Below, piece by piece: positions 27,703 through 45,680 of a stretch of 45,928 nucleotides of DNA. The stretch lies in contig CALVXM010000007.1 of NCBI GenBank assembly GCA_944371305.1, forward strand, positions 1-45,928, in the 5' to 3' direction. The stretch's first letter is position 1. The number at the start of each line of letters is the position of its first letter. Position numbers and translations under genes: made by a program. The notes under the pieces are model-generated. The model did not search any database. It was not told the DNA's origin and was given only the letters and a program-made list of their open reading frames with translations. The DNA comes from an uncultured Bacilli bacterium (GTDB lineage: Bacteria > Bacillota_I > Bacilli_A > RF39 > UBA660).

Positions 27703-29280
27703 ATGATAAAATCATTTATTACATCTTTCAAATTAAAAAATACTTATCGTGTTAACAGTGTTATTTATTCGATAAGACAATTTCCATTTGTTAAAAAAAT
27801 TTTACCTAATACTTTGTATAAGAATAAAGTTTTAAAAATAATTGGTAATATTATTAGTGTAATTATTGAGCTTTGTAGTATTTTCTTAGGTAAATTCCTT
27901 TATCTTTGGCTATGTATTGTTTCAATTGTTGGTTTATATAAAACTAATCAAGCTACAACTTTTATTCATATCTTTACATTTTTAACTTTAGCTGGAGCCT
28001 TTTTGAATACCTATATGTTTAATCCTACTAAAGACAAATATTATGCGATGATGATAATGAATATGGATGTTAAAAATTATACTTTGTCTAACTATTGCTA
28101 TGCGATGATTAAAGTTTTTGTAGGCTTTTTACCATTTACAATAATCTTTGGTATTATTTATAATATACCATTATTTATTAGTTTATTGATGCCATTATTT
28201 GTTATATGTGCAAAAATGTGTTTTAACGCTTATACTTTAATTAAATACGATAAATCTAATTTAGTTATTAATGAGAATACTCTTACCAAAACATTTTGGA
28301 TTGTAATTATTGGTTTAGTTGTATTTGCTTATGGATTACCTTATTTAGGATTAAGCATTAATTATTTTATTTTTATAATTATTTTTTTAGTTAGTCTTGT
28401 TTTAAGTATTTATAGCTTTATAATAATAAAAAAATTCGATAAATACAAATCACTATATAAAAAATTATTGACTAATGAAAATGTTTATGCCGTAGAGAAT
28501 AATAACAGTGCTAAAACTATAAAAGAAAATACAGTTAAACAAATAACTTTAGATACTAATTTTACAAGTAATAAATCCGGTTTTGCTTATTTTCACGAGT
28601 TATTTGTCAAAAGACATAGTAAAATTTTGACTAAAGCTATTAAGAAACAATCTATTTTTATTGCTGGTGTAATTATAGTAGCTATCTTTTTAGTTTTAAC
28701 TAACAAAGATTTAGCTAAACAAATTAATAGCATATTACTTGTTTATTTACCTTATTTTGTTTTTATTATGTATATGTTAAATCGAGGAACAACTTTAACA
28801 CAAGCTATGTTTATGAATTGTGATCATAGTATGCTAACTTATAGAATTTATCGAACCCCTAAAGTTATTCTAGGATTGTTTAAAGAAAGATTAAAAACTT
28901 TAGTTTTTATTAACTTGATACCGGCAATTTTAATAGGCTTTGGTTTGGTTATTTTGTTATATTTAACAGGTGGGACCGATGAAGTTTTAAATTATTTAGT
29001 TTTATTTATATCAATTATCGCAATGAGTATTTTCTTTTCAGTTCATTATTTGGTTATGTATTATTTACTTCAACCTTATAATATCAATACAGAAATTAAA
29101 AGTAGTACTTATAGGGTCGTTCAAATGATAACTTATTTTGTTTGTTATTTCATGATAGATCAAAAAATATCAACTTTATATTTTGGAATGGGAACAATTA
29201 TCTTCAGTATTTTATATTGTTTTATATCTTTAGTTATTGTTTACAGATATGCTCCTAAGACTTTTAAAATTAGAATTTAA
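27703..29280 (+). CDS. ABC transporter permease, 525 residues
   Basis: The large membrane protein has about twelve predicted helices in two halves, separated by a hydrophilic stretch at about 250-300. It is 2 nt from the ATPase gene (GGAGGAATA ribosome site) and must be its membrane partner. I recognise no substrate-specific motif. Similar permeases in Firmicutes are unassigned exporters. The next gene has its own promoter. Confidence 0.75.
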   Translation: MIKSFITSFKLKNTYRVNSVIYSIRQFPFVKKILPNTLYKNKVLKIIGNIISVIIELCSIFLGKFLYLWLCIVSIVGLYKTNQATTFIHIFTFLTLAGAFLNTYMFNPTKDKYYAMMIMNMDVKNYTLSNYCYAMIKVFVGFLPFTIIFGIIYNIPLFISLLMPLFVICAKMCFNAYTLIKYDKSNLVINENTLTKTFWIVIIGLVVFAYGLPYLGLSINYFIFIIIFLVSLVLSIYSFIIIKKFDKYKSLYKKLLTNENVYAVENNNSAKTIKENTVKQITLDTNFTSNKSGFAYFHELFVKRHSKILTKAIKKQSIFIAGVIIVAIFLVLTNKDLAKQINSILLVYLPYFVFIMYMLNRGTTLTQAMFMNCDHSMLTYRIYRTPKVILGLFKERLKTLVFINLIPAILIGFGLVILLYLTGGTDEVLNYLVLFISIIAMSIFFSVHYLVMYYLLQPYNINTEIKSSTYRVVQMITYFVCYFMIDQKISTLYFGMGTIIFSILYCFISLVIVYRYAPKTFKIRI

Positions 29281-29308
29281 TTAAATAATTTTATATTATG
29301 AATATTTA

Positions 29309-29317
29309 TGTTATAAT
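29309..29317 (+). promoter_or_regulatory. Extended -10 promoter of the lipoprotein gene
   Basis: TGTTATAAT ends 18 nt before the ATG, with GAGGTGAT between. Confidence 0.6.
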
Positions 29318-29335
29318 TTAAAAAGAGGTGATTTG

Positions 29336-29872
29336 ATGAAAAAGTTTTTGGTTTGTTTATTTATTTTAACTACTGTCTTATCTCTAACTGGCTGTGGTAA
29401 TGACAAACAGCCTTCTATCGAGGAAGAAACTGTTTATAGTGAGGAAGAAACTGTTCAAATTTTAACAGCAAAATTTAATACAGAAATTATCGAAAATGGA
29501 ACTGAAACTCCTGTCTATGATGAAAATTTAACAATTAATAATGATACTTATTTTTATAATCTTTTTGAAGATATAAATTATTATATTAAACCAGTGAAAT
29601 TCACCGAGGATATTGAAAAAGATGTAGCAAAATCAAGTGTAATATATTACTCTATTGATAGCGAATTTGAAGATATAGCTTTAAAGTATGTTAAACATTT
29701 AATAAAAGCTAACAAAATTGATATTTCTGCCTCTGAAATCGATGAGGCTTTAGAACAAGCAAAAAAATTATCAGATGATGAACTTGAGTATGATGGCAAA
29801 AATGGTTTACTTATTAAATATTATGAAAAAGATGGAAATAAGTATTATGAAATTACTAGAGTTTATGAATAA
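29336..29872 (+). CDS. Small surface lipoprotein of unknown function
   Basis: The 178-residue protein has a lipoprotein signal (MKKFLVCLFILTTVLSLTGC) whose lipobox LTGC places lipidated cysteine at residue 20. The rest is acidic, glutamate-rich and soluble, with no domain I recognise. The start is the ATG at 29336 behind GAGGTG. It is monocistronic with its own promoter and terminator. Confidence 0.8.
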   Translation: MKKFLVCLFILTTVLSLTGCGNDKQPSIEEETVYSEEETVQILTAKFNTEIIENGTETPVYDENLTINNDTYFYNLFEDINYYIKPVKFTEDIEKDVAKSSVIYYSIDSEFEDIALKYVKHLIKANKIDISASEIDEALEQAKKLSDDELEYDGKNGLLIKYYEKDGNKYYEITRVYE

Positions 29873-29897
29873 AAGCAAATTTGTGTTGCTTTTTTTC
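29871..29897 (+). terminator. Intrinsic terminator of the lipoprotein gene
   Basis: An 8-bp stem AAAAGCAA / TTGCTTTT followed by TTTT, overlapping the stop codon. Confidence 0.75.
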
Positions 29898-29998
29898 ATT
29901 TTATTTTTTTATATAATTGAATTATAGTTTGATATGTGTTAAAGTTTAAATGTAGAATAAATAATATATAATTATTAATAGAAAGTAGGCATAATTAG

Positions 29999-30130
29999 AT
30001 GTTAGAAAATAAGAAAACATCATCATTAGCCAATAGCACACATGGGGGGGGGCAGAACTTTTATAAAGTAAATTGCTATTTGTTTAAAATAAACAAATTA
30101 CCTCACATTAAAAATGTAACTTATTATTAG
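29999..30130 (+). CDS. Small frame in leader A, 43 residues (MLENKKTSSLANSTH...)
   Basis: It begins MLENK-K-TSS-LANSTH like its partner at 45534, then GGGQNFYKVN against KSDNNLYRLK. K/R, V/L and F/L exchanges suggest the peptide, not only the DNA, is conserved. A ribosome site GAAAGTAGG lies 9 nt upstream. In this copy the stop seen in copy B is TGC, so the frame runs on to TAG at 30128. That TAG is in frame with the broken gene that follows. No hydrophobic segment or known domain. Confidence 0.45.
   Translation: MLENKKTSSLANSTHGGGQNFYKVNCYLFKINKLPHIKNVTYY
30044..30052 (+). repeat. Run of nine Gs inside the small frame
   Basis: A G9 homopolymer in very AT-rich DNA, absent from the matching leader at 45.5 kb. 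Such tracts can slip and switch reading frames. Confidence 0.9.
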
Positions 30131-31166
30131 AATAAAGGTGATACGATATCAGAAAGTGAAATCGCGTTATGGTATGTATGGATACCAAGATATACATACA
30201 CGATAATTTAATGGCAATAATGAAGGTGTTAAAAGGCAAGTAATCGATGTTAAATTTGAAAATGGAACTAATAGTAGTGGTACAGTTGAATGTGTTGATA
30301 ATGTAACAGGTAGTGGAGAAACTAGTGAGGTATGTACGGATAGTAAAAATGGAAGTATAATAAATGGAACAAGTACCTATACCCATCCAGCTTTCACTTT
30401 TGGTTCAGAAGAATTAACAGGCTTTTGGGTTGGAAAATTTGAAATTAGTACCATAGATGCAACATGTAACGCAACACCAAATGAAACTAATTGTGATAAA
30501 GTATTACCGATAACAATAAAACCAGGCGTAAGTAGCTATAGTTATGCTAGTAATTATCATATTTTTGAATCAATTAAGAAGATAAATGAAGATTATAATC
30601 TAAATGGGGATTCCCATATGATTAAGAATATGGAATGGGGAGCAGTAGCATATTTAAAACAAAGTCAATACGGCTTAGAAGATGTAGATATAGCGATAAA
30701 TAATAACGGAACAACATATTATACTGGTGGTGGCGCTAGTAATGCTTATAAAGATAATATCACACAATCAACAACCGGAAATATCTATGGTGTATATGAT
30801 ATGAGTGGCAATGATTGGGAAAGAGTAATGGGAAATGTAGTAAATAGTAGTGGAGAATTTAGTCTTGGTTATTCTGGCTTTACGGATGCCCCAGATGTTA
30901 AATATTATGATAAATATACATATGGAAGTTTAAACACAACATATATAAGAGGAAAATTAGGAGATGCAACAAAGGAAACTTTAACTAATTTTGGAAGTAC
31001 TACAGGGGGATGGCACAGTGATTATGCTAGTCTCGCTTATTCTACCTATCCGTGGTTCATTCGTGGCGGTTACTATGACAATGGTTCTGCTGCAGGTGTA
31101 TTTAACTTTCATTACTATGGTGGCAATGCTTATGGAAACTATAGTTCTAGAGCTGTTTTGTCATAA
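30131..31166 (+). pseudogene. Broken pilin-type surface protein with C-terminal FGE/C-type lectin-like domain
   Basis: In frame after the TAG at 30128, the sequence reads NKGDTISESEIALWYVWIPRYTYTI, then meets TAA at 30209. One extra A near 30205 shifts the frame. Without it the protein continues FNGNNEGVKRQVIDV and runs unbroken to 31166. The rest includes GFWVGKFEIS, NMEWGAVAYLKQSQYG, YGVYDMSGNDWERVMGN and the C-terminus RGGYYDNG...SSRAVLS. These are hallmarks of formylglycine-generating-enzyme/C-type-lectin-fold domains. No N-terminal prepilin or signal sequence is present, though related proteins often have one. An ATG at 30618 could start the last 182 residues, but no ribosome site is seen. 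Confidence 0.75.
31053..31166 (+). other. Variable-region-like 3' end of the lectin-like gene (DGR target pattern)
   Basis: Codons after CGT GGC GGT are TAC TAT GAC AAT, later AAC TTT CAT TAC TAT, then GCT TAT GGA AAC TAT. Nearly all changeable positions are NNY codons giving Tyr, His, Asp or Asn. This is expected when AAY codons of a template repeat are mutagenised at adenines. No reverse transcriptase or template copy is in the window. Confidence 0.5.
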
Positions 31167-31196
31167 GAATTCAAATGATATATTGAATTCTTTTTT
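31165..31196 (+). terminator. Intrinsic terminator of the lectin-like gene
   Basis: A 10-bp stem AAGAATTCAA / TTGAATTCTT followed by TTTTTT, overlapping the stop codon. Confidence 0.85.
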
Positions 31197-31238
31197 ACCT
31201 TCTTTTTACACATCCATATTTTCTTTTAAATATCATTA

Positions 31239-31247
31239 TGCTATACT
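31239..31247 (+). promoter_or_regulatory. Extended -10 promoter of lepB
   Basis: TGCTATACT ends 18 nt before the signal peptidase ATG. Confidence 0.5.
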
Positions 31248-31265
31248 AAATTATAGTGATGCTAT

Positions 31266-31787
31266 ATGGATTTAAGAGGTTTTAAAGAATTTATCAAAGA
31301 CTTTATTAAAATAGCTATTTTAGTAATAGTTATCTTAGCTATTTATACTTGGGTAATTAGTTTACAACAAGTGATTGGTTCTAGCATGAGTAACACTTTA
31401 AATAATGGTGATATGGTTTTACTATTTAAAGCTAAATATAAATTTAGTGATGTTAAAAGGTTTGATGTTATATCATTTTATTATGATGAGACTAAATATT
31501 TAATTAAAAGGGTAATTGGACTACCCGGTGAACATATTGCTTATAAAGACAATAAGTTATATGTCAATGGTGAATATGTCGAAGAAAATAGAGATTTTAT
31601 TACTGATGATTTTGATTTAAAACAACTAGGATATGATGTTATCCCTGATGATATGTATTTTGTTTTGGGTGATAGTCGTGAAAATAGTTTGGATAGTAGA
31701 GAAATAGGATTAGTGGCCAAAAAAGATATTGTTGGTAAAGTTGTTGTTAGAATTTGGCCGATTACAGGTATAAAACTAGTTAAATAG
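31266..31787 (+). CDS. lepB: Signal peptidase I
   Basis: The 173-residue membrane serine protease cleaves signal peptides of exported proteins. It has one N-terminal helix (about 15-35), the serine motif GSSMSNTL (normally SMxPTL; Pro is Asn here), the catalytic lysine in YLIKRVIGLPGE and the box VLGDSRENSLDSREIG. The serine-lysine dyad is intact. The ribosome site before the ATG (AGTGAT) is weak. The next gene lies 10 bp away behind AGGAGG and is co-transcribed. Confidence 0.93.
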   Translation: MDLRGFKEFIKDFIKIAILVIVILAIYTWVISLQQVIGSSMSNTLNNGDMVLLFKAKYKFSDVKRFDVISFYYDETKYLIKRVIGLPGEHIAYKDNKLYVNGEYVEENRDFITDDFDLKQLGYDVIPDDMYFVLGDSRENSLDSREIGLVAKKDIVGKVVVRIWPITGIKLVK

Positions 31788-31797
31788 GAGGAATTTG

Positions 31798-32187
31798 ATG
31801 TCTTATATTAAATTTAAAGAATTAACAAAGTATTTTGATTTTAAATATGAAATATTACCAAAAGATTTACCAGAATATGTTTTAGAATATTCTTATGATG
31901 ATGAAAAAATATTATTAGGTTATAAAAATAATCGTGATTATATTATGTTTACTAATCGAAGAATGTATTTATTTGACCGTGATGTAGCAGGAGTGTATTA
32001 TAAAAAAATTCATATTATTCCTTATCGCTCAATTTCTAGTGGGGCTATTAATTTTAAACCTGGGAAAGCTGAATTACTGTTGTCGTTAGATAGTGGTTAT
32101 CAATTACACATTAATTTTATTGCAATGAATCATGACAAAAAAGAGAATTTAAAAAAGATTTATAAGATCATGTTTAGGGATAAATAA
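31798..32187 (+). CDS. Bacterial PH-domain protein
   Basis: The 129-residue cytoplasmic protein resembles the bacterial pleckstrin-homology domain (YvbH-like): LLGYKNNRDYIMFTNRRMYLFDRD, IPYRSISSGAINF and a C-terminal helix. Function in bacteria is unclear. The start at 31798 follows AGGAGG. It follows lepB by 10 bp. Confidence 0.75.
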   Translation: MSYIKFKELTKYFDFKYEILPKDLPEYVLEYSYDDEKILLGYKNNRDYIMFTNRRMYLFDRDVAGVYYKKIHIIPYRSISSGAINFKPGKAELLLSLDSGYQLHINFIAMNHDKKENLKKIYKIMFRDK

Positions 32188-32369
32188 ATCTTTTTTTATA
32201 ATTTGTTTTTATAATTTATCTGATTTTGAAAATTATGGCAAAAAATAGCAGTAAAATCAAAAATCTATGTATAAAATACTTGATTTTTTCTTAATTTTTG
32301 ATATTATATAATTACGTTCGACAATTTTTTTGCCGTAACGAATATTCATATTACAGGAGGGGAAATTAT

Positions 32370-35369
32370 ATGAATAAGAAAAAAATTATTATTATCATAA
32401 TTGTTCTCTTATTATTAGGCATTATAGTTTATTCATTCGCCGTTAAACCTACTGCCGAACCTGAACAACCTGATGATAATAATCCACCAACTGAGCAACA
32501 GGATGGTGAAGACGATGATCAACAAACAACACCTTCTGATGAGGAAGATGACGATCAAAGTCAAGATGAGCCTGAAGATGATACTGCTGTATCTGGTGAT
32601 GGTACTATTGATCAAGAAGAGCCAATTGATTATTTAGCACTAGCCCAAGAAGCAGTTGCTAAAGCAGAACAATCTTTAACTCAAAGTGATATTGATATTG
32701 CTAAGGATGCTATTAATGAAGTTGAAAATAGTGATGTCAGCGATTTAGTAGATCGTATTGAAAATGTTCAAAACGTTGTTGATTTTGAAAGTTTATTCAA
32801 AGAATTAGAAGAAAAAACTAATTCATCTACTAATAAGGCTCAATTAGATGAGGCAAGAAATTATAACACTACTAATGATTTAACTACAAAATTAAATGAT
32901 TTATTAGAAAAATTAGTAGAAAATGATACTAAAACAAGTTTGGAAAATAGATATAAAACTGTTTTAGCTAAATTAAATGATATTTCTGCACCTAGTATTG
33001 ATGCAGGTATTCAAAAAGGCGAATTTACCAAAGGACCAGTAAGTTTGACTATTACTGATGATTCAAGTTTTAAGGCTACATTAAGTAAAAATGGAGTAGA
33101 AATTGGAACTTATGTTACTGGTGATGAAATTGAGGAAGATGGTAAATATACTTTGACTTTAGTTGATAGTTCATTTAATAAAAATGTAATTGAATTTGTT
33201 ATTAATAATACAGATCCAGTTATTGCATTACCAACTTTAAAAGAAAACATCTTCACTAATGATGGTACTATCAATGTTACTGACGATATTGAATTTGAAG
33301 TTGTAATTACTTTAGATGGCGAAACTAAAGATACAATTACTGCTACAGTTCAAACTGATGGCACTTATTTAGCTACTTTAGATTTAAGTCAATATGGTAA
33401 AGGTGAATACACAATTACTGCTACTGATAAAGCTGGAAACACTGTAACAAGCGCTACTTTTGATTTTGATGCTACAGGAGCTTTAGTTACTAATATTGAT
33501 GAATTAAATGCTGCTTTAAGTGACAATACTATTGAAACAATTTATTTAAATAATGATATTACAGATTTAACTTCAAGAGTTGTTGTTAATCGTGCTGTTA
33601 CAATTAATGGTAACAATCATAAATTAACTTTCACTGATGCTATCAATACAGCACCTGATGGTGAAAGACAAGGTATCGTTGTTACTGCTAACGATGTTGT
33701 AATTAATGATTTAACAGTAGAGATGAATGCTATTGATAATGAAGCTTGGACTGGTACATATGCTATTCAAGTATATAACGGAACAGCTACATTAAATAAT
33801 ATTACTGCTACAAAAGCAGATGGTGGTATTTTTGCTAATAATTCAACTATAACATTAACTGGAACAATCGATGTATCAGGAAATGAATTTGGTGGAATTG
33901 AAGTATCAAATGGTAATCCTGTTTTAAATGCAACAGAGGCTACTTTAGTAAATACCACAGAAGAATTTAAAAAACCAACTATTTGGACAGATAAAACTCC
34001 AAATGCAGTAGTTAATGTTAATGACTTTACTGCTAATGATTCAATCGTAGTAGACCAAGTTCAATATTATTTAAGTGAAAACAATATTGAAGGTTCTGAA
34101 ATGACTACAAATGTTAATGATATTTATACAAGTACTGATTTAAATCAACCTACATCTATTACACCTAATGCTTCAGCAACTATTACAGTTTATAAATCTT
34201 ATACAAATATTAGATTTAGAGTTGAAAACTTTAATACTCCAGATGGAGCAAATGTTAAAGTATGGGCTCAAGATACCAATGGTAATATTTGGGATATGGT
34301 TACAACTGGTTGGGGACCAGCTAATGGATTCCCAGTCGAAGCTGGATATAGTGCTACAACTCCTTTCCAAATAGTAGTAGATAAAGCTGGTAGTTATTCA
34401 GCTGATATAGTTTTATACGATGTTATTACTAATGAAGAATTATCTAGACAAACGATCGCTTTTGAAGCAAATATGCTTGTTACAAACGAAACTGAATTAA
34501 GTGAAAGTTTAGCTGATAGTACTATTGATACAATTTATTTACCTGCTGATTTTACTAGTACTACCACTGCTTTAGATATTAATAGACCAGTTACAATCGT
34601 TGGTAATGGCGCTACTTTAAATAATCAAGTAATTATTTCTGGTGATAATGTAGTATTAGAAGATGTAGTTTTAACTGATAATCTTACTGTTACTGGTGCT
34701 AATACAACATTAGAAAAAGTTACAATGACTGGTGTTAATTCAGAAGGTACTGGAAATGGTAATGGTCATAGCGTAATTAAAGTTACTACTGATGGTGATT
34801 TTACAATGACTAATTCAATAATTGATAATACAACTAGTACTGGTTCATTCTATAATGCTTTAAATATTCAAGCAGATGGTAAAGTAACTGTTGAAAATAA
34901 CACTTTTACTAATATGAATAATGTATATAATGTTATTGAATTTTCACAATCTGTAGCTACTGCTAATGGAACTACTATTAAAGGTAATACTTTCACAGGT
35001 CAAAGTAAAAATAATGTTATTAATCTATTCTTATTTGAAGAAGGTACAGTTATAAATATTGAAGATAATGAATTTGCATATGCTTCAAATGCAGTACGTG
35101 TATCTAACTATAACAATGTTAGTGATGTAACTATCAATATTACTAACAATGAATATAAAGATTCAAGTTCTGGAGCTTATGCTGGATTTATGTTATTCCA
35201 AGAAGTTAAAAATGAAAGCTTTAATGGTATTACAGTTAATGTGACTAACTTAATCGGTCCAAGTGGTGAAAAAGTTACTGCTGACAGTACTGATAAGGAT
35301 AGATTCTGTTATTATTATTTTAATCATACTACAAATACTGGTGAGGCTATTATCAATTTCTTAGATTAA
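32370..35369 (+). CDS. Large membrane-anchored surface protein with Ig-like and repeated beta-helix domains
   Basis: The 999-residue product begins with an uncleaved-looking signal anchor (MNKKKIIIIIIVLLLLGIIVY). An acidic Pro/Glu/Asp/Gln linker follows (about 28-85), then a helical region (about 88-205). Two Ig-like domains span about 208-368. Then come two pectate-lyase-like beta-helix segments starting near residues 370 and 701. The two segment starts repeat a pattern (LVTN-x2-EL, TI-x-TIYL, NR-x-VTI-x-GN). Only one cysteine is present, near the C-terminus. No LPXTG sorting motif. The ATG at 32370 follows CAGGAGGGG. Likely an adhesin or carbohydrate-binding stalk. No catalytic residues are identifiable. 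Confidence 0.8.
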   Translation: MNKKKIIIIIIVLLLLGIIVYSFAVKPTAEPEQPDDNNPPTEQQDGEDDDQQTTPSDEEDDDQSQDEPEDDTAVSGDGTIDQEEPIDYLALAQEAVAKAEQSLTQSDIDIAKDAINEVENSDVSDLVDRIENVQNVVDFESLFKELEEKTNSSTNKAQLDEARNYNTTNDLTTKLNDLLEKLVENDTKTSLENRYKTVLAKLNDISAPSIDAGIQKGEFTKGPVSLTITDDSSFKATLSKNGVEIGTYVTGDEIEEDGKYTLTLVDSSFNKNVIEFVINNTDPVIALPTLKENIFTNDGTINVTDDIEFEVVITLDGETKDTITATVQTDGTYLATLDLSQYGKGEYTITATDKAGNTVTSATFDFDATGALVTNIDELNAALSDNTIETIYLNNDITDLTSRVVVNRAVTINGNNHKLTFTDAINTAPDGERQGIVVTANDVVINDLTVEMNAIDNEAWTGTYAIQVYNGTATLNNITATKADGGIFANNSTITLTGTIDVSGNEFGGIEVSNGNPVLNATEATLVNTTEEFKKPTIWTDKTPNAVVNVNDFTANDSIVVDQVQYYLSENNIEGSEMTTNVNDIYTSTDLNQPTSITPNASATITVYKSYTNIRFRVENFNTPDGANVKVWAQDTNGNIWDMVTTGWGPANGFPVEAGYSATTPFQIVVDKAGSYSADIVLYDVITNEELSRQTIAFEANMLVTNETELSESLADSTIDTIYLPADFTSTTTALDINRPVTIVGNGATLNNQVIISGDNVVLEDVVLTDNLTVTGANTTLEKVTMTGVNSEGTGNGNGHSVIKVTTDGDFTMTNSIIDNTTSTGSFYNALNIQADGKVTVENNTFTNMNNVYNVIEFSQSVATANGTTIKGNTFTGQSKNNVINLFLFEEGTVINIEDNEFAYASNAVRVSNYNNVSDVTINITNNEYKDSSSGAYAGFMLFQEVKNESFNGITVNVTNLIGPSGEKVTADSTDKDRFCYYYFNHTTNTGEAIINFLD

Positions 35370-35373
35370 TTAT

Positions 35374-35405
35374 AAAAGTAAGCTTTTAAAAGCTTACTTT
35401 TTTGT
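35374..35405 (+). terminator. Intrinsic terminator of the large surface protein gene
   Basis: A perfect 14-bp palindrome AAAAGTAAGCTTTT / AAAAGCTTACTTTT followed by TTT. Confidence 0.85.
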
Positions 35406-35409
35406 AAAT

Positions 35410-35435
35410 AAAAAAGTAGAGCGTATAACTCTACT
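35410..35435 (-). terminator. Intrinsic terminator of the FemABX gene
   Basis: On the minus strand a 7-bp stem AGTAGAG / CTCTACT (35429-35435 with 35415-35421) is followed by TTTTT. Confidence 0.75.
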
Positions 35436-36696
35436 ATTTTGTTAGTTTACTTTTAATCAGTTTTTTAAGTGGTACATAATTACGATATAAATTATAATTA
35501 CGTTTATGAGTAACTAATTCAAAATCTCCAGCATATTCATACATTTTCGCCCCAAATCCTAATTTAAATTCATCTAATCCTGTATAGCGATTAGAGTCAA
35601 TTGTAATATTAGAAACTCCTCCAAGATTAAACTTAGTAAAACCTTGTTTTTGGTGCATTTCTATTATTTGCCAAATTAATAAATGTTTAGAATTTAATTT
35701 TTTAAAATTAGGAGCATAACCATCCATTAAAATAGTTATTTCTTTATCTTGTTTTACTAATAATATACATGAAGTTACGACTCCTTCAGGATAATTTCTC
35801 AGCATGTTAGTAGCACTTATTAATTCGTTACGATATTGATTTAAATATTTATCAATATTTATTTTTTTACTGATTAATTTATGTTTATATTTTGTTTTTT
35901 TATTCATGATTAAATTATTTAATTGATTACTTTTGTTTTCATAAGAAGCTAGTTTATCTTGAATAGTTTTTAAATATATTTTAGTATCTAATTTGGTGTA
36001 GTATAGATCAATCATGTTTCTTTTAAGAAAAAAACCGAAACAATCTTTAAAGTAATCTAGTCCTCTTGGGTATCGATATTTAGTAAATTCATGAAGATAT
36101 TCTAAATCATTTACATTACCGCGATAAGTTCTAATACCATTTTTAATCGCACTTCTAATTTTAGTTCGATATGATTTTGATACATTTTTAAATAGTTCAT
36201 ATAGAGGTTTATTTAAATCAATAATAGCTTCAAATCTTGGTTTTAAAGCTTCAAAAAAATTATTATAACCCAAGTGATAGTAACCATTTTGTTTTAATGC
36301 TTCAAAAATTAAATCATATTTTGGATTAGTATCTTTTGTTTGGGTATTTAAATCATAAATGTTTCTAATAATCATTGGATTTATTTTAATACCGATAATT
36401 CCTTTTTTACCCAAATAATTTTTAATATGAGCAGTAAAATCTTTGATTAAGTAAAAATCTTCGTAATTTAAAATGAATCCTCTTGGTGCGTAGGCATATT
36501 TAAACCCTTCTTCTTTTTTTACTAAGATTAAACTAGCTCCTACAACTTTAGAATTATCAACTAATCCTAAAAGTAGGGGAGTATATTTTTGTTGTTCCAT
36601 TATTAAACCGTATTCTTGGGTTTGATAAATTGATTTTAAAGGGAAAATTTTAGTAAATTCATTAAATTCTTGATCATTTAATTCGCGAAATTCCAT
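35434..36696 (-). CDS. FemABX-family peptidyltransferase (peptidoglycan cross-bridge)
   Basis: The 420-residue cytoplasmic enzyme moves amino acids from aminoacyl-tRNA onto lipid-linked peptidoglycan precursor. It has two GNAT-like subdomains (SIYQTQEYGLIME; FKYAYAPRGFIL; SKSYRTKIRSAIKNGI; KFNLGGVSN). A lysine-rich coiled-coil arm at about 225-285 is the tRNA-contacting helical arm of FemA and MurM. The C-terminal block includes GLDEFKLGFGAKMYEYAGDFEL. The amino acid added is not predictable. Single gene, with its promoter facing the next operon. Confidence 0.92.
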   Translation of the reverse strand: MEFRELNDQEFNEFTKIFPLKSIYQTQEYGLIMEQQKYTPLLLGLVDNSKVVGASLILVKKEEGFKYAYAPRGFILNYEDFYLIKDFTAHIKNYLGKKGIIGIKINPMIIRNIYDLNTQTKDTNPKYDLIFEALKQNGYYHLGYNNFFEALKPRFEAIIDLNKPLYELFKNVSKSYRTKIRSAIKNGIRTYRGNVNDLEYLHEFTKYRYPRGLDYFKDCFGFFLKRNMIDLYYTKLDTKIYLKTIQDKLASYENKSNQLNNLIMNKKTKYKHKLISKKINIDKYLNQYRNELISATNMLRNYPEGVVTSCILLVKQDKEITILMDGYAPNFKKLNSKHLLIWQIIEMHQKQGFTKFNLGGVSNITIDSNRYTGLDEFKLGFGAKMYEYAGDFELVTHKRNYNLYRNYVPLKKLIKSKLTK

Positions 36697-36714
36697 GCTT
36701 AATCACCTTTTTAA

Positions 36715-36748
36715 ATTATATCATATAATTATTAAAATGTCATATAAT
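36715..36748. promoter_or_regulatory. Divergent promoters of the FemABX gene and the dehydratase operon
   Basis: Minus strand: ATGACA, a 17-nt spacer and TATAAT with TG extension (36715-36723). Plus strand: TATAAT at 36743-36748. The minus -35 overlaps the plus -10, so the two may exclude each other. Confidence 0.55.
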
Positions 36749-36783
36749 TCATAATTAATAATATATTTATGTAGGGTGAGATA

Positions 36784-37665
36784 ATGAAAATAGGAATACC
36801 TAAAGCACTTTATTACTATTATTATTTTGAAAAATGGCGGTATTTTTTTGATGAGTTTAATATTGAATTAGTAAGTTTTGATACCGATAGGGAAATCATT
36901 GCTAAAGGTAATTATTATGCATCTAGTGAGATGTGCTTATCACTTAAAATATTTTTAGGTCATATCGCCAAATTGGTTGATAAATGTGATTATATTCTTA
37001 TTCCTAAGGTTGATAATTATGGTCTTAAAGATCAGATGTGTGCGAATTTTAGTTGTTTATATGATTTAGTTAATAATTTGTTTGACGTTAAAATATTGAC
37101 ATATGAAATTGATTATATACATAATTTAAATGAGTTAAAAGGGTTTATCAAACTTGGTAAGCAATTAAATCTTAAAATTAAAGATATTAAAAAAGCGTAT
37201 CATAAAGCTTGTATTAAATTTAATAAAAAAATGAAAGAAAAAATTATGATTAATACCAATAAATTAGATAGTTGTAATAAAAAAATTTTGATAGTTTCCC
37301 ATGCTTATAATATTCATGATAATTATATTGGTAAAATTATTAAAGATAATTTAACTAAATTTAATTGTGAAATAATATATAGTGATTTATTTAACAATAC
37401 ATCTGACTTATCTTTTTATTTGTCAAATGAGTTATATTGGAAATATAGCAAACAAAATATTGGAGCAATTGTTTTATGCAAAGAAAAAATTGATGGGATT
37501 ATATTTTTAACAACTTTTCCTTGTGGATTAGATAGTTTAGTTAATGAATTGGTAATTAGGAAAATTGACAAGCCATATTTAAATTTAGTAATTGATGATT
37601 TGGATGCTGAAGCAGGAATTGAAACACGTATAGAAAGTTTTGTCGATATTCTTGAACAAGCTTAA
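36784..37665 (+). CDS. Acyl-CoA dehydratase activase-related protein (DUF2229-like)
   Basis: The 293-residue protein begins MKIGIPKALYYYYY, typical of the DUF2229 section of large activase-related proteins. It has conserved cysteines in SSEMCLSLK and QMCANFSC, and ends TFPCGLDSLV ... LVIDDLDAEAGIETRIESF. The cysteines probably hold an iron-sulfur cluster. It is the first of three overlapping genes. In many clostridia the equivalent domains form one long polypeptide. The physiological substrate is unknown. Confidence 0.8.
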   Translation: MKIGIPKALYYYYYFEKWRYFFDEFNIELVSFDTDREIIAKGNYYASSEMCLSLKIFLGHIAKLVDKCDYILIPKVDNYGLKDQMCANFSCLYDLVNNLFDVKILTYEIDYIHNLNELKGFIKLGKQLNLKIKDIKKAYHKACIKFNKKMKEKIMINTNKLDSCNKKILIVSHAYNIHDNYIGKIIKDNLTKFNCEIIYSDLFNNTSDLSFYLSNELYWKYSKQNIGAIVLCKEKIDGIIFLTTFPCGLDSLVNELVIRKIDKPYLNLVIDDLDAEAGIETRIESFVDILEQA

Positions 37666-38719
37666 AGTATCATTTCCTCATATGGCTAATTATTATATTC
37701 CTGCTAAATATTTATTTTCTAATATTTTAAATGTTGATATTATGATTGCTCCTTTTATAACTTCTAAGACAATTGAACTTGGTAGTAAATATAGTCCTGA
37801 TTTCGTTTGTACTCCGTTTAAATATACTTTAGGATCGATGATTGAAGCTTTAGATAATGGAGCTAATATTTTGCTTCAATTTGGAGGTGGATGTCGTTAT
37901 GGTTACTATAGTGAATTACAAGAAAAAATTTTAAAAGATTTAGGATATAAGTTTGAATTATACAATCTTATTAATGCAGGTAAAGCTGATGTTAAAAGAA
38001 TATATAAAACAATTAAAAAAATTGATAAAAAGTTTAATGTTTTTAAAGGCTTATATTATTTATTTATTGCCATTAATATGGTTAAATATATGGATAAAAT
38101 CGATGATTATATTAGACAAAATATCGGTTTTGAGGTAAAAAAAGGCAGTTTTGATAAATTATTAAAAGAAATGTTAGAAAAATTTGAAACTGTTAAAAAT
38201 CCTTTTAGTTTGTATGTTTTATATAAAAAATATTTTAAAAAATTTAAACAAATCAAAATAAATAAACCAAATAATTATTTGAAAGTAGGGGTAATAGGAG
38301 AACTTTATACTTTAATGGAACCTTTTAGTAATTATTATTTAGAAAAAGAACTAGCTAGTTTTAATATTGAAATCAAAAGATTTACCAATGTCGATTATTT
38401 GCTATTTAATAATAAAAAAGTTCATAAAAAAGCTTTAAAAAATTCCAAGAAATATATGAAGTATAAAATGGGCGCGGATGCGTCTAGTAATGTTTATTGG
38501 ACGAAATATTTATGTGAACATAAATATGATGGTATTATTCACATTAAATCAAGTTTTTGTACGCCTGAGATTGGTGTAATGCCAATAATTGATAAAATAG
38601 CTAGTGATTATGATATACCTATTATTTATTTTAGTTTTGATGCAAATACTAGTGAAATTGGCATCAAAACTAGATTAGAAGCTTTTTATGATATGATAGA
38701 AATGAGGAAAAAAAGATGA
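37652..38719 (+). CDS. 2-hydroxyacyl-CoA dehydratase-like protein
   Basis: The 355-residue protein carries the dehydratase D-type pattern: SFPHMANYYIPAKYLF at the start, SPDFVCTPFKYTLGSMIEAL, LQFGGGCRYGYYSELQ and SSFCTPEIGVMPII. The three conserved cysteines would ligate a 4Fe-4S cluster. The frame is open from a TTG at 37640. I use TTG 37652 because the protein then begins NKLKVSFPHM as family members do, but no strong ribosome site is seen. ATG 37691 would cut the first motif. It overlaps the upstream gene, implying coupled translation. Confidence 0.78.
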   Translation: MNKLKVSFPHMANYYIPAKYLFSNILNVDIMIAPFITSKTIELGSKYSPDFVCTPFKYTLGSMIEALDNGANILLQFGGGCRYGYYSELQEKILKDLGYKFELYNLINAGKADVKRIYKTIKKIDKKFNVFKGLYYLFIAINMVKYMDKIDDYIRQNIGFEVKKGSFDKLLKEMLEKFETVKNPFSLYVLYKKYFKKFKQIKINKPNNYLKVGVIGELYTLMEPFSNYYLEKELASFNIEIKRFTNVDYLLFNNKKVHKKALKNSKKYMKYKMGADASSNVYWTKYLCEHKYDGIIHIKSSFCTPEIGVMPIIDKIASDYDIPIIYFSFDANTSEIGIKTRLEAFYDMIEMRKKR

Positions 38720-39660
38720 ATTGTTATTTAGGAGTCGATATTGGTAGTATGTCGACTAAAGGTGTAATTATCGATGAAAATAATAAAATTATCGCATTAT
38801 CTTATATTTGGACTGAAGGTAATCCTGTTGAAGCAGTTAAAAAATTAATTAATATTTTAAAAAATCAGTTAGATAAAAAATATATTGTTAAAGGAGTTGG
38901 AACAACTGGTAGTGCGCGTAAATTAATTGGTTTATTGTTAAATGCCAATGTTGTTAAAAATGAAATCATGGCACATGCGATTGGGACTTTATCGATTTAT
39001 CCTGATGCTAAGACCATATTAGAAATAGGTGGTCAAGATTCTAAAATTATTTTACTCAACAATGGTATTATTACTGACTATGCGATGAATACGTTATGCG
39101 CGGCTGGAACTGGCTCTTTTTTATCGAGTCAAGCTAAAAGACTAAATATTAATATTGAAGATTTCGGTCCACTTGCTTTAAAAAGTAATAATCCTGTTAA
39201 GATAGCGGCTCGTTGTACTGTTTTTGCCGAGTCAGATTTAATTCATAAAGCTCAAGTTGGATATAAGAAAGAAGATATTGTTGCTGGTTTATGCCGAAGT
39301 ATTGTTTTAAATTATTTAAATAATGTTGGAAAAGGTAAAAAAATTAATTCACCTATTATTTTTCAAGGTGGTGTTTCCAAAAATATTGGAGTTTTAAAAT
39401 ATTTTAAAGAAATATTAGGTACTGATGTTATTGTCGATTCTAATAGTCACTTGATGGGAGCTTTGGGAATAGCTATTTTGTCTAAGAAAAATAGTAGTGA
39501 TAAAGTGTATGATTTAAATATCGAAAATATTGAATTTAAAACTAAAGCTATTGAATGTAAAGGTTGTAGTAATAATTGTGAAATTTTAAGAATTTATAAA
39601 GATAATCGATTAATTGATAACTGGGGTAATCGATGTGATAAATATATAAAAAATTGCTAA
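38716..39660 (+). CDS. Acyl-CoA dehydratase activase (BadF/HgdC-type ATPase)
   Basis: The 314-residue ASKHA-fold ATPase uses ATP to drive a low-potential electron onto its partner dehydratase. Motifs: GVDIGSMSTKGVII (phosphate 1), ILEIGGQDSKII (phosphate 2), LCAAGTGSFLSSQAKRL, and AARCTVFAESDLI with the bridging cluster cysteines. A 40-residue C-terminal extension has a second cysteine set (CKGCSNNC, NRC). ATGA overlap with the previous gene. It would activate the protein encoded just upstream. Confidence 0.9.
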   Translation: MNCYLGVDIGSMSTKGVIIDENNKIIALSYIWTEGNPVEAVKKLINILKNQLDKKYIVKGVGTTGSARKLIGLLLNANVVKNEIMAHAIGTLSIYPDAKTILEIGGQDSKIILLNNGIITDYAMNTLCAAGTGSFLSSQAKRLNINIEDFGPLALKSNNPVKIAARCTVFAESDLIHKAQVGYKKEDIVAGLCRSIVLNYLNNVGKGKKINSPIIFQGGVSKNIGVLKYFKEILGTDVIVDSNSHLMGALGIAILSKKNSSDKVYDLNIENIEFKTKAIECKGCSNNCEILRIYKDNRLIDNWGNRCDKYIKNC

Positions 39661-39743
39661 TACGATAACTTTTATTTAAAGTTTTGAAGTATTAGGATTT
39701 ACGATAATTGTGCTACTACTGGTGCTATTCTTTCATAAATTAT

Positions 39744-39774
39744 GCGATTTGATCATAATGATAAATCGCTTTTT
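39744..39774 (+). terminator. Intrinsic terminator after the dehydratase operon
   Basis: A stem GCGATTT / AAATCGC (inner ATCAT/ATGAT also pairs) followed by TTTTT. Confidence 0.8.
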
Positions 39775-39827
39775 CTTGTATAGATTTTGTAAAAATTATA
39801 ATTATATAAATAAAGGGAATAAAAATA

Positions 39828-39836
39828 TGATATAAT
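39828..39836 (+). promoter_or_regulatory. Extended -10 promoter of the LCP gene
   Basis: TGATATAAT ends 18 nt before the ATG, with GTGGTGAT between. Confidence 0.6.
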
Positions 39837-39854
39837 TATGTAGTGGTGATTTAA

Positions 39855-41885
39855 ATGAAAAAAATTAGTTTTAATAAAATATTGTTTTTAATTATGTCAA
39901 TCTTAATATTAGCTTTTATTATATTTGTTATAACAGCAAATATAATTCCTTTAAAATTTTTATTGATTTTAATTGCTGTAATGTTATTATGGGATGTTGG
40001 CTTGTTCTTTTTATTAGTGTTTAAAACTAAGAAAGGGAAAAATAAAAAACGAAAAATAACTGGTTATGTAATAAGCGGTATTTTAGTTATTTTAATGGCA
40101 ATTATTGTTTATTATTTAAGTATAACCATGGGCTTTTTTAAAGGTTTTGGCTCTAATAAATATAAAGAGGAAAATTACTTAGTGTTAGTACTTAATGATA
40201 GTACTTTTCAAACTTTAACTGATTTATCTAATATTGGTTACACTTCAAATGAATTGTCTAATATTAATGAAGCTTTAACTAAATTAAATGAGGAAGTAAT
40301 GATTGAAAATATTCAATATGATGACTCATCAACAATGTTTGACGATCTAATCAACAAAAAAATTGATTCGGTTTTAATCGAGGAATCAGCGATGGGAATT
40401 TTATATGAACAACATGAAGAATATGAAGGATTATTTAGAACTATTTATACAATTAATATTAAAACGGAAATTGAGATTGCCAAAGAAACTGATGTAACTA
40501 ATCAACCTTTTACTGTTTATATAAGTGGAATAGATTCTTACGGTAGTATCGCTAGTGTGTCACGTAGTGATGTTAATATTGTAGCAACTATAAATCCTAA
40601 AACCAAACAAATTTTACTTATCTCAACGCCACGTGATTATTATGTCCAATTAAGAGGTACAACTGGTCTTAAAGATAAATTAACTCATGCTGGAGTTTAT
40701 GGTGTGGAAACATCAGTCGGAACTTTAGAAGATTTATTAGCAACGGATATAAACTATTATTTTAGAGTTAATTTTACTTCGTTAGAAAAAATAGTCGATG
40801 CTTTAGGTGGCGTAGATGTATATTCTAAGTATAGTTTTAATTCTTCTAAAGCAACCGGTGGAACCTATTATTTTGCTAAAGGTTATAATCATATGAATGG
40901 TAAACAAGCTTTATCTTTTTCAAGAGAAAGAAAAAGATTACCAGGTGGTGATCGGGCTCGTGGTGAGAATCAACAAGCGGTTATCGATGGTATCGTTAGA
41001 AAGGCAACTAGTCCAGCTATTATAACTGGTTATAGTAAAATATTAAATTCTTTAAAAGATACATTTCAAACTAATATGACTGATAATGATATTCAAAAGT
41101 TAATTAAAATGCAATTAAATGATATGGCAAGTTGGAACATTACAAGCTATAGTTTAGATGGTTCTGACGGTAGTGATTATACTTATTCTTATCCATCTTC
41201 TAAAGCATATGTAATGATTCCTTATGAAGATTCTGTTAATGAAGCTCAAAATTTAATTGATCGTGTTATTGCTGGTGAAGTATTAGAAAGTAGTTATGAT
41301 GAAGAGATTGGCGATATTAAAGATCCAGTTTATGTTGAACCTAAGCCAGAACCAAAGCCAGAACCAAAACCAGATCCAGAACCAGAAACACCAGAAGAAC
41401 CAACAATTACAGGAACTGTTCCGGTTATTAGTTTTGATGTTAATAGTATAACTATTGCTAAAGGTCAAGCTTATGACTTATTAAGTGGTGTAACTGTTAC
41501 TGATATTGAAGATGATTTATTAAACTTAAAATTAGAAGTTAAAGCTGATTGGTCAGATACTACTATTTTAGACGTAGGGGAGTATACTATTACTTATACA
41601 GTAACAGATAGTGATGGTAATACGACAACAGCTAAAAGAACTTTAGTCGTAAAGCCAGATTTAAACAACGATAGCATTCCTGATGATGAGATTCCTATTG
41701 AACCAGAGGATCCAGATGATTCTACTGATGTTGAAAAACCAGAAAACCCAGATGGTGAAGAACCGACTGATCCAGTTGATCCTGATTCACCATCAGATTC
41801 TGATAATTCTGATATTTCCGATAACACTGGTTTAGAAAATGAAAATATTCTTATGAATAATTTAGCTATTAATAGTATTTATTAA
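39855..41885 (+). CDS. LytR-CpsA-Psr (LCP) family wall polymer ligase with Ig-like and acidic C-terminus
   Basis: The 676-residue protein has three N-terminal helices (about 8-30, 36-58, 70-92), an accessory extracellular domain (about 105-215), and the LCP catalytic domain (about 220-400). LCP motifs are SRSDVNIVATINP, LISTPRDYYV, KLTHAGVYG and FSRERKRLPGGDRARGENQQ. LCP enzymes attach lipid-linked teichoic acid or capsule to peptidoglycan. Past the domain lie a KPEPKPEP spacer, an Ig-like DUF5011-type domain (about 515-605) and an Asp/Pro/Ser-rich tail, which ordinary LCPs lack. It could attach the polymer made at 8.5-19 kb. Confidence 0.92.
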   Translation: MKKISFNKILFLIMSILILAFIIFVITANIIPLKFLLILIAVMLLWDVGLFFLLVFKTKKGKNKKRKITGYVISGILVILMAIIVYYLSITMGFFKGFGSNKYKEENYLVLVLNDSTFQTLTDLSNIGYTSNELSNINEALTKLNEEVMIENIQYDDSSTMFDDLINKKIDSVLIEESAMGILYEQHEEYEGLFRTIYTINIKTEIEIAKETDVTNQPFTVYISGIDSYGSIASVSRSDVNIVATINPKTKQILLISTPRDYYVQLRGTTGLKDKLTHAGVYGVETSVGTLEDLLATDINYYFRVNFTSLEKIVDALGGVDVYSKYSFNSSKATGGTYYFAKGYNHMNGKQALSFSRERKRLPGGDRARGENQQAVIDGIVRKATSPAIITGYSKILNSLKDTFQTNMTDNDIQKLIKMQLNDMASWNITSYSLDGSDGSDYTYSYPSSKAYVMIPYEDSVNEAQNLIDRVIAGEVLESSYDEEIGDIKDPVYVEPKPEPKPEPKPDPEPETPEEPTITGTVPVISFDVNSITIAKGQAYDLLSGVTVTDIEDDLLNLKLEVKADWSDTTILDVGEYTITYTVTDSDGNTTTAKRTLVVKPDLNNDSIPDDEIPIEPEDPDDSTDVEKPENPDGEEPTDPVDPDSPSDSDNSDISDNTGLENENILMNNLAINSIY

Positions 41886-41894
41886 TAGCTTTTT
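41864..41894 (+). terminator. Intrinsic terminator of the LCP gene
   Basis: A 10-bp stem AGCTATTAAT / ATTAATAGCT and TTTTT, overlapping the stop codon. Confidence 0.8.
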
Positions 41895-41947
41895 CTGTTA
41901 AATTTAAAAGGGAAATATAAACTAATAAAACTATTAGGAGGAAGATA

Positions 41948-41998
41948 ATGCCAAAATTTTATACAGCAAGATATGAACAGATATGTATTGTATGGTAA
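41948..41998 (+). pseudogene. 16-codon frame behind a strong ribosome site, possible gene remnant
   Basis: AGGAGG lies 5 nt before ATG of MPKFYTARYEQICIVW-stop. The opening resembles, to my memory, the start of Rpn-type PD-(D/E)XK nuclease/transposase proteins. The remaining bases to 42063 show nothing further, so this may be a decayed 5' end. It could also be a real small peptide. Confidence 0.25.
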
Positions 41999-42063
41999 AA
42001 CAAGATATATTAAAAATTTCTAGTTTAAAAAGTTAATTTCAAATAAAAATTTAAACAAATAAT

Positions 42064-42093
42064 GTATGAAAAATTTTCTTTGATATCATAATT
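42064..42093 (+). promoter_or_regulatory. Candidate sigma-G/F-type promoter before sigG
   Basis: GTATG (42064-42068), 18-nt spacer and CATAATT (42087-42093), against the sigma-G consensus GHATR-N18-CATNHTA: one base differs. This fits autoregulation of sigG known from Bacillus. Confidence 0.5.
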
Positions 42094-42115
42094 GATATGA
42101 AAGGAGATTTTTTAT

Positions 42116-42889
42116 ATGGCACGCCATCGCGTTGAAATATGTGGCGTGAATACTGCGAATATTAAAGTTTTAAGTAATGAAGAAATGCTAGAATTATTTA
42201 AAAAATATCAACAAGGTGATTTACAAGCAAAAGAAGATTTAATTAATGGCAATTTAAAACTAGTTCTATCGATTTTAAAAAAATATAACAATCGAACAGA
42301 TAATTTAGATGATTTATTTCAAATCGGTTGTGTGGGCTTAATTAAAGCGATTGATAACTTCGATTTGGCTCACGAGGTAAAGTTCTCTACTTATGCTGTT
42401 CCGATGGTTTTAGGGGAAATTAAACGGTATTTACGGGATAGTAGTTCTGTAAGAGTAACAAGAAGTTTAAAAGATATTGCTTATCGGGGATTAAAAGCAA
42501 AAGAAGAATTAACAAATAAATTAAACCGTGAACCAAGTGTCAAAGAAATAGCTGATTTATTAGGTATTGCTGAACTGGATGTCATTCAAGCTTTTGATGC
42601 TGTTAAAGATGCTGTTAGTATGTCCGAACCGATTTATAACGATGGTGGAGATACTATCTATTTATCTGAACAAATAGCAGATACCAAAGATAAAGTAGGA
42701 ATCGATATGAATTTAATGTTAAAAGAAACTTTGAATAAATTAAAACCAAAAGAAAAATTTATTATTTATAAAAGATATTTTGAAGGTATTACTCAAATTG
42801 AATTATCAGAAGAAATTGGAATTAGTCAAGCCCAAATTTCTAGAATTGAAAAAAATTGTTTAGATAATATGAAAAAAATGATGAAATAA
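42116..42889 (+). CDS. sigG: RNA polymerase forespore sigma factor SigG
   Basis: The 257-residue sigma-70 factor directs late forespore genes during endospore formation. It has the SigG-specific N-terminus HRVEICGVNT and region 2 (DDLFQIGCVGLIKAIDNFDLAHEVKFSTYAVPM). Also visible are LGEIKRYLRDSSSVRVTRSLKD, EPIYNDGGDTIYLSEQI, and the region 4 helix-turn-helix QIELSEEIGISQAQISRIE. Length equals Bacillus SigG. Start at ATG after AAAGGAG. The next gene is ylmC-like, an order also seen near sigG in Bacilli. SigF is the main alternative, but VEICGVNT favours SigG. Confidence 0.92.
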   Translation: MARHRVEICGVNTANIKVLSNEEMLELFKKYQQGDLQAKEDLINGNLKLVLSILKKYNNRTDNLDDLFQIGCVGLIKAIDNFDLAHEVKFSTYAVPMVLGEIKRYLRDSSSVRVTRSLKDIAYRGLKAKEELTNKLNREPSVKEIADLLGIAELDVIQAFDAVKDAVSMSEPIYNDGGDTIYLSEQIADTKDKVGIDMNLMLKETLNKLKPKEKFIIYKRYFEGITQIELSEEIGISQAQISRIEKNCLDNMKKMMK

Positions 42890-42914
42890 ACATAAATTTT
42901 AAATAGGTGGTAGT

Positions 42915-43142
42915 ATGTACTTAAGCGAGCTTCAGTCAAAAAATATTGTAACTACTTCAGGAAAATTAATTGGCAATATTGTCGATATCGTTATCGATAG
43001 TGGCAATATCAAATATTTAATTGTCGAAAAAACTAAATTTTTAATATCGATGTTTACCTCTAAAAATGAAGTGGAAATCAAATGGGATCAAATAAAAACG
43101 ATTGGTGATGATGTCATAATTGTTGATGTAAATAAGATATAA
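42915..43142 (+). CDS. YlmC/YmxH-family PRC-barrel protein
   Basis: The 75-residue protein is a single PRC-barrel domain (LQSKNIVTTSGKLIGNIVDIVID ... FLISMFTSKNEVEIKWDQIKTIGDDVIIV), the form called YlmC/YmxH in spore formers. The exact role is unknown. It lies 25 bp after sigG with GGTGGT before its ATG and is probably co-transcribed. Confidence 0.88.
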   Translation: MYLSELQSKNIVTTSGKLIGNIVDIVIDSGNIKYLIVEKTKFLISMFTSKNEVEIKWDQIKTIGDDVIIVDVNKI

Positions 43143-43159
43143 AATTTTAAAAAAATGGT

Positions 43160-43189
43160 TTGACATAGACTAAAATTTTATGATATACT
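43160..43189 (+). promoter_or_regulatory. Promoter of the gene at 43217
   Basis: TTGACA, an 18-nt spacer and TATACT with TGA extension: the closest match to the vegetative consensus in the window. Confidence 0.8.
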
Positions 43190-43216
43190 GAAAACTCGCG
43201 GGAGGAAAAAGATAGT

Positions 43217-43666
43217 ATGTTTGACAAAATTACATTAGATTATTTATACGTAGCAAATTATGTATCTGAAACATTAGAATATATTTATACTGGGATTTAT
43301 AATCCTGTTACTATTACACATCATTTTAAGAAAAAAAGTAAGAAGCAAGTATTTATTGCTTTAATGGATAATAAGCAAAAATTTGTTGGTTATATGAATT
43401 TGTTCGATGGACAAGTTTATTCTGAGAAGTTTAATTCGACCGATGATTATGATTTGATAGTCGATCAAAATGATCAAAATGGTATAGCTTCAGCTTGTAA
43501 AACTAATAGTGGTTATTATGATTTTGAGCCATTATCTAATTATAATTCAAAATATATAAAACCTTATATGACATTAAGTGAAACTAAAAAAGCTTTAAAG
43601 GATATTAATAGACAAATAAGTAAAATCAATGAAAAAGGTAAAACTAAACAATTTTTACCTTTTTAA
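43217..43666 (+). CDS. Hypothetical protein, 149 residues
   Basis: I do not recognise this family. It is a soluble, mixed alpha/beta-looking protein. It begins MFDKITLDYLYVANYVSETLEYIY, has a lysine-rich HHFKKKSKKQ segment near residue 36, and ends with a charged helix (KKALKDINRQISKINEKGKTKQF). No signal peptide or membrane helix. A strong promoter and GGGAGG site suggest steady expression. It lies just upstream of the RNase J-like gene, separated by a weak terminator. Confidence 0.7.
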   Translation: MFDKITLDYLYVANYVSETLEYIYTGIYNPVTITHHFKKKSKKQVFIALMDNKQKFVGYMNLFDGQVYSEKFNSTDDYDLIVDQNDQNGIASACKTNSGYYDFEPLSNYNSKYIKPYMTLSETKKALKDINRQISKINEKGKTKQFLPF

Positions 43667-43680
43667 ATGTCCATAATTGG

Positions 43681-43719
43681 TAAGAAAGTTATATAAACTA
43701 GACTAATTTCTTATTTTTT
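43681..43719 (+). terminator. Probable weak intrinsic terminator
   Basis: A 7-bp stem TAAGAAA / TTTCTTA with a 19-nt loop, followed by TTTTTT. Confidence 0.45.
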
Positions 43720-43727
43720 GATATAAT
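43719..43727 (+). promoter_or_regulatory. Extended -10 promoter of the RNase J-like gene
   Basis: TGATATAAT lies 39 nt before the ATG. The ribosome site is AAAGGAGGT. Confidence 0.55.
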
Positions 43728-43766
43728 TATTTAGGTTTTAATGTAATTTGGGAAAGGAGGTAAGTT

Positions 43767-45670: not shown

Positions 45671-45680
45671 AAAAAGATAA

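Follow-up and report, generated by a model that had tools for sequence, protein, structure and literature searches.

What does a short, promoter-bearing module do when it recurs ahead of surface genes and carries a run of Gs in its small reading frame? An earlier note on the DNA analysed here (a stretch of 45,928 nt from an uncultured Bacilli bacterium, hereafter the window) had described such a module as duplicated, with a constant distance from promoter to ATG, and had proposed a shared control leader, a recombination site, or both. The duplication is real: two copies of ≈170 bp and ≈79% identity lie at 29964–30132 (copy A) and 45499–45673 (copy B), their promoter-to-ATG spacing is the same, and 13 more copies are found elsewhere in the genome.

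Copy B is the only one in the window that precedes an intact gene start; all features given for A and B are on the + strand. Its promoter, P1 (TTGCTT-17-TATAAT, 45479–45507), is followed by a small-ORF region at 45534–45671, where the ATG at 45534 opens a 25-aa frame (MLENKATPVLANSTHKSDNNLYRLK) that ends at a TAG in codon 26 (45609–45611). Without this one TAG the frame would reach the TAA at 45669–45671, the same end as the long frame, which is kept across a degenerate tract (AAAAGCGA, 45579–45586). The tail of the small ORF includes CCTCAC (45642–45647), an anti-Shine–Dalgarno sequence that is predicted to pair (P = 1.00) with GTGAGG at 45752–45757, the pilin Shine–Dalgarno sequence (SD), itself part of a 3′ pairing arm (GACATAATAGAAGTGAGG, 45740–45757). 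A second promoter, P2 (TTGACT-17-TAGAAT, 45681–45709), whose spacer contains an inverted repeat, is followed by the pilin. This gene (45768–45928), a class III prepilin of the ordinary type, starts MKKGFTLVELLAVIIILGIIALITFP, gives an N_methyl match and is cut by the contig end.

Copy A is a decayed, dead member of the set. Its P1 retains a TATAAT −10 box (29967–29972) and lacks the TTGTTT −35 box of most other copies. A P2-type promoter remnant (TTGAAT-17-TAAAGT, 29917–29945), of the sequence type that precedes module-free pilins in this genome, stands directly upstream, and none is found in the usual place behind the small ORF. The long, in-frame form of the ORF encodes 43 aa (MLENKKTSSLANSTHGGGQNFYKVNCYLFKINKLPHIKNVTYY; 29999–30130) across a tract of exactly nine Gs (30044–30052), as had been counted before. 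The tail has CCTCAC at 30101–30106; the GTGAGG that it matches in intact copies is missing, and so is the pilin start. The earlier claim that both modules stand ahead of surface genes therefore holds for B and fails for A, behind which there is only a 5′-truncated lectin-type fragment (30131–31166) with one frameshift. It had also been claimed that loss of the stop would place the small frame in register with this broken gene. This is correct just past the TAG at 30128–30130, where the frame continues as ESEIALWYVWIPRYTYTII, but the register (30131–30208) lasts only ≈26 codons, to a stop near 30209, and the rest of the fragment, up to 31166, is in the +1 frame. A Pfam search of 30552–31163 in this fragment gave no match below 0.01.

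Copies were counted in the organism's own assembly (1.14 Mb, 47 contigs) by sequence search with copy A as the query. There are 15 in all, the 13 outside the window having E values from 1e-47 to 1e-17. The layout comprises P1 (TTGTTT-17-TATAAT in most copies), a ribosome site, a start codon, a head (MLENKVTPxLANSTH in the alignment), a G-rich tract and a tail (NLYRLNCYLFNLKINKLPHIKNVTYY before the stop); in most copies P2 (TTGACT-17-TAAAAT, again with an inverted repeat in the spacer) comes after the tail, followed by GAAGTGAGGAG and the start of the pilin. The next gene is a class III prepilin in 10 of the 10 intact copies that have enough downstream sequence, two of which (L004 and L006) have a TGA in the pilin just ahead of the mature start. 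Three copies stop at contig ends, and copy A and L014 stand before broken lectin fragments. The idea of a leader shared by surface genes is thus borne out, and scatter ahead of unrelated genes, the mark of a mobile repeat, was not seen; the one exception is an extra 41-nt match to the promoter part only, which precedes a lipoprotein gene. We therefore ruled out a mobile repeat. A known RNA class was likewise rejected: Rfam 15 gave no match above any family's gathering score in 29000–45928, in agreement with the earlier remark that no known leader class was recognised. N_methyl (PF07963) matches number 33 in this genome, among them the prepilin that follows copy B; 32 exceed the cut-off, and roughly a third of the pilins have the module.

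Some further features of these pilins were recorded. The pilin starts behind L004 (C1:98452–98511) and L006 (C5:48701–48760) are near-identical, both reading MKKK-stop(TGA)-FTLIELL. Contig C23 of the same genome encodes a reverse transcriptase of 331 aa (L043:1074–2069), which has GLPIGNLTSQ and YMDD motifs and resembles the enzymes of diversity-generating retroelements; the C-terminal lectin-like ends (SSRAVLS) of some pilins could be its targets. Alternating pyrimidine–G runs (ccgcgcgcgcgtaattt, ccgtgtgtgtgtaattt, cgtgtatgtgtaattt) lie a short distance upstream of pilin promoters at L082 and L085 in relatives and at L172 on contig C14 of this genome.

The earlier note had also looked to relatives for copies. 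No recognisable nucleotide copy of the whole module was found there, and five weak matches were chance A+T-rich matches within unrelated genes; what the relatives do have is a homologous leader within the prepilin gene itself. This leader (L-T/A-N-S-K-x-Gn), with a tract of G9–G14, is fused to the prepilin in 8 of 17 congeners, as in MIKLTNSKT-Gn-HLLNNAFTLIELLAVIIIL. Extended G runs are conspicuous in a genus as A+T-rich as this one. Seven of the 17 congeners contributed 29 tracts of at least 10 Gs, every one of them within the leader of a prepilin-like gene, including one (L081) whose contig ends just past the leader. At G012:C5 and other loci the same leader sits on a different membrane start, GFAISGIIYSIL. 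It was also seen on genes that start with GFAISGIIYSILILFLLL and not with the FTLIELL prepilin motif (L092, L093 and L127 in relatives), so that the leader is not tied to a single kind of membrane start. No fused G-tract leader was present on any of the pilin starts examined in the window's own genome. A strict element pattern matched 0 of 392 genomes across the phylum, and in a scan of all species representatives 34 of 35 matches fell in MAGs labelled Bacilli bacterium; the element is thus not common in the phylum. The 35th, in a Proteobacteria MAG, looks like chance. A phage-borne module was rejected as well, since the viral scan gave a single match in an unrelated context.

G homopolymer tracts of this kind give phase variation through slipped-strand mispairing. 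The 34 fused leaders with G9–G14, duplicates collapsed, include 9 that are in frame and 25 that are out, close to the one third in frame that free slippage would leave. Past the tract, the genes that are out of frame remain free of stops for as many as 600 codons or more, the shortest values coming from contig ends. One gene has G9, in frame, in G011 and G10, out of frame, in G010, and the next 639 nt are identical; this natural allele pair is a single one, from two draft assemblies. The fused leaders thus have what is expected of contingency loci: tracts within the gene in all three frames, OFF genes that are otherwise intact, and alleles that differ in length. That the G tract could be a slippage switch, as the earlier note suspected, is supported for the fused form by these tallies, and slipped-strand phase variation of the fused prepilin leaders is strongly supported. 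The Gs fall within the segment that prepilin peptidase would remove, so that in-frame changes of length should spare the mature pilin.

Three observations on these loci stand apart. The alleles of the G9/G10 gene (L088/L212 at G011:C70 and L089/L218 at G010:C26) are unrelated beyond ≈80 nt upstream of the leader motif, and such unlike far flanks are a sign that the leader–pilin gene was transferred or relocated between genomes. At L131 (G004:C38) a G10 tract is followed by a 36-nt insertion, a second G7 tract and the usual continuation, as if the G run had received an insert. In G040, TTAACAAATAGCAAAAAT-G9-C(G)ATTTA, like the fused leaders, lies ahead of two pilins (L200, on the reverse strand, near 981, and L207, near 5779), with no start codon in frame and with GCCCTCCTCC after the tract, able to pair with the G run.

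The detached and fused leaders are kin. They have the motif L-A/T-N-S-x-x-Gn in common, and both the head of the module (LANSTH-Gn) and the first residues of its tail (NLYRLN) match fused leaders, the closest being in G004 (LANCKP-Gn-QNLYKIRLNYGFTLIELL). G004 is the one relative in which the leader is also detached: four such leaders, one with its start lost, stop shortly before an ordinary prepilin start, and their tails match those of the window's species as far as NC..NLK, beyond which sequence and length differ. One pilin type occurs there in both forms, fused at L134 (QNLYKIRxNYGFTLIELL) and detached at L249 and L251 (QNLYKIRVNCQFHNLKQ...). On this likeness the detached module would derive from the fused switch, or the reverse, and we hold with high confidence that its origin is phase-variable.

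How might a detached leader act on a separate pilin gene? The tail of the module contains TACCTCACAT, complementary to the pilin SD, GTGAGG, ≈110 nt downstream, with extra pairing of ATGTC to GACAT. For full transcripts from P1, the predicted probability that the SD is unpaired was 0.00–0.02 in 11 of 17 detached loci, and that of pairing between anti-SD and SD was 0.98–1.00, again in 11 of 17; when CCTCAC was held open in the same 11 loci, the predicted probability of an unpaired SD rose to 0.26–0.84. The tail–SD duplex was stronger than in dinucleotide shuffles in most own-genome copies (P = 0.001–0.04), with P = 0.05–0.16 in the G004 copies; L012 and L013 failed this comparison and L007 was marginal and not significant. 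In L003 and L015, neither of which has P2, the standard lower arm is lost and a new arm, ATAACTTATT with AATAAGTTAT, is present, and for the tail of L015 the pairing is better with its own type of arm than with those of other copies. The SDs of the module-free pilins L162 and L167 are also predicted to be masked. Between leader and pilin the folds showed no G+C-rich hairpin with a T run behind it, and transcription attenuation was rejected on this ground.

RNAalifold recovered the CCTCAC:GTGAGG stem. Covariation, one of the checks proposed by the earlier note, was partly seen: within own-genome copies no pair in this stem had changed on both sides, but two pairs of the upper stem had done so between the P2-less copies and G004. 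In G004, CCTTAC stands opposite GTGAGG and, in L250, opposite GTAAGG, its exact complement.

The reading frame gives a second line of evidence. Frames were tallied by hand. Where the G tract of a detached locus is interrupted, the long frame across it is kept in 8 of 8 cases (L003, L008, L009, L010, L011, L014, L250 and L251), although L010 has a nonsense codon after the tract and L014 a frameshift before it. When related copies are counted once, the eight amount to ≈6 independent cases, and the chance of all being in frame is ≈0.001 (≈1 in 700). Among the nine detached loci with a pure tract, three are in frame. Out-of-frame readings halt just behind the G tract, ahead of the anti-SD, both in this genome and in G004. 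The amino acids appear to matter little: pN/pS was 0.89 over the first 15 codons (the head) and 0.43 over the tail (P = 0.12 by column permutation), so that strong coding selection on the small ORF, for which the earlier note had suggested a test, is unsupported. Selection for translatability to the end of the ORF, irrespective of most amino acids, would show the pattern of a ribosome-passage device.

Taken together, these observations make us lean towards the module being the detached form of a phase-variable prepilin leader, widespread in the genus, and controlling pilin translation through SD unmasking. In relatives, slippage that adds or removes a single G would switch the prepilin into or out of its reading frame, and any added glycines would be lost when the leader is cleaved off. 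The window's species and G004 have the leader as a small ORF of its own, upstream of an ordinary prepilin gene. Out of frame, its translation would end just past the G tract, and the tail would be free to fold onto the SD and block pilin translation; in frame, ribosomes crossing the tail stretch would free the SD. The genome could then be seen as a switchboard of pilins, with the leader-dependent part of their expression going on and off at random. For the unmasking step itself, which was predicted from the folds, we put the chance slightly short of even.

Against this reading stands the possibility that the detached leader lost its role once the pilin had gained its own start and P2, and that the copies spread by duplication or conversion of whole pilins with their upstream DNA. 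We consider this unlikely but not negligible. P2 lies between small ORF and pilin in most own-genome copies, being absent from L003, L015 and the G004 copies, and the SD is predicted to be free (0.55–0.89) in most transcripts started there. P2 would bypass leader control in most own-genome copies. Because its transcripts begin after the anti-SD, the leader may add to pilin output here and not decide it, or be on its way out. The G tracts of this genome are also shorter (6–9 Gs) or interrupted, compared with 9–14 in relatives, pN/pS is near 1 over the head, and several copies have decayed (A, L014, L015 and a remnant upstream of L166). A functionless remnant does not readily account for the long frame being kept in all eight interrupted tracts, for a tail that is open in every out-of-frame copy checked, or for complementarity to the SD that most copies retain and that arose anew in the two without P2.

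A functional, phase-variable micro-protein encoded by the small ORF, with the SD pairing incidental, is improbable. A 45-residue frame is kept, the tail has the lower pN/pS and it is held in common with G004 up to NC..NLK; however, the constraint on the tail is not significant, the first 15 codons have none, and past NLK the G004 tails differ. Slightly less probable still is a module that serves mainly as a recombination site, or as a G-quadruplex that starts surface-gene conversion as at gonococcal pilE, since the presence of the same module before different pilin families in one genome, the G010/G011 gene with its different far-upstream flanks and identity from ≈80 nt upstream of the leader motif, and the noncoding element copy ahead of two pilins in G040 are set against tracts in relatives whose position and frame follow the coding leader and whose lengths over the frames fit slippage, while no recombinase target or crossover was mapped and ordinary homologous exchange can give shared 5′ ends.

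Among known systems, the detached leader with SD unmasking, as we prefer to read it, comes close to pil1 of Streptococcus gallolyticus, in which a leader peptide is extended by GCAGA repeats and a transcription terminator is disrupted by ribosomes (Danne et al. 2014, PMC3894217). In both, a pilus gene is preceded by a leader ORF that contains a variable repeat tract, and in pil1 passage of ribosomes along the long leader turns that gene on. In contrast to the GCAGA pentamers, transcription terminator and single sortase-pilus operon of pil1, the module has a G homopolymer, predicted SD masking with no leader-controlled terminator seen, type IV prepilins and many loci, and it is kin to a fused prepilin leader. 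The module resembles the pil1 switch and is not a member of the pil1 system. In Neisseria pilC, slippage in a G tract within an exported type IV pilus gene causes on/off frameshifts (PMC5953494, PMC5231331). The tract is of similar length, and the fused leaders in relatives would work like pilC. The pilC tract, too, lies within the signal-peptide region. PilC differs in that it acts at the tip and in retraction and is no prepilin, and it has no detached leader ORF. In ermC-type translation attenuation, translation of a leader ORF frees a masked downstream SD, the trigger being antibiotic-stalled ribosomes. The RNA of the module's leader ORF is predicted to pair with a downstream SD, but the input would be a random change of frame and not a stalled ribosome. 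The gonococcal pilE gene has an upstream G-quadruplex. G-rich DNA upstream of a type IV pilin gene is common to both, whereas the Gs of the module form one homopolymer of varying length within a reading frame, and exchange with silent cassettes belongs to pilE. In the open-access literature we found no report of poly-G prepilin leaders or poly-G prepilin phase variation in this clade. We tentatively propose, at rather less than even confidence, a new kind of switch, in which the homopolymeric G run of a detached leader ORF would control a separate pilin via SD unmasking at about a dozen loci, giving each cell a random combination of pilins.

The fused leaders show that uncultured Bacilli with small genomes have surface fibres governed by slippage at multiple loci, a system which can be likened to the contingency loci of mucosal pathogens. 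Automatic annotation would label many such pilins as broken, when about two in three are only out of phase. The occurrence of fused and detached forms side by side, even within G004, suggests that an in-gene switch and an upstream regulatory ORF are interconvertible.
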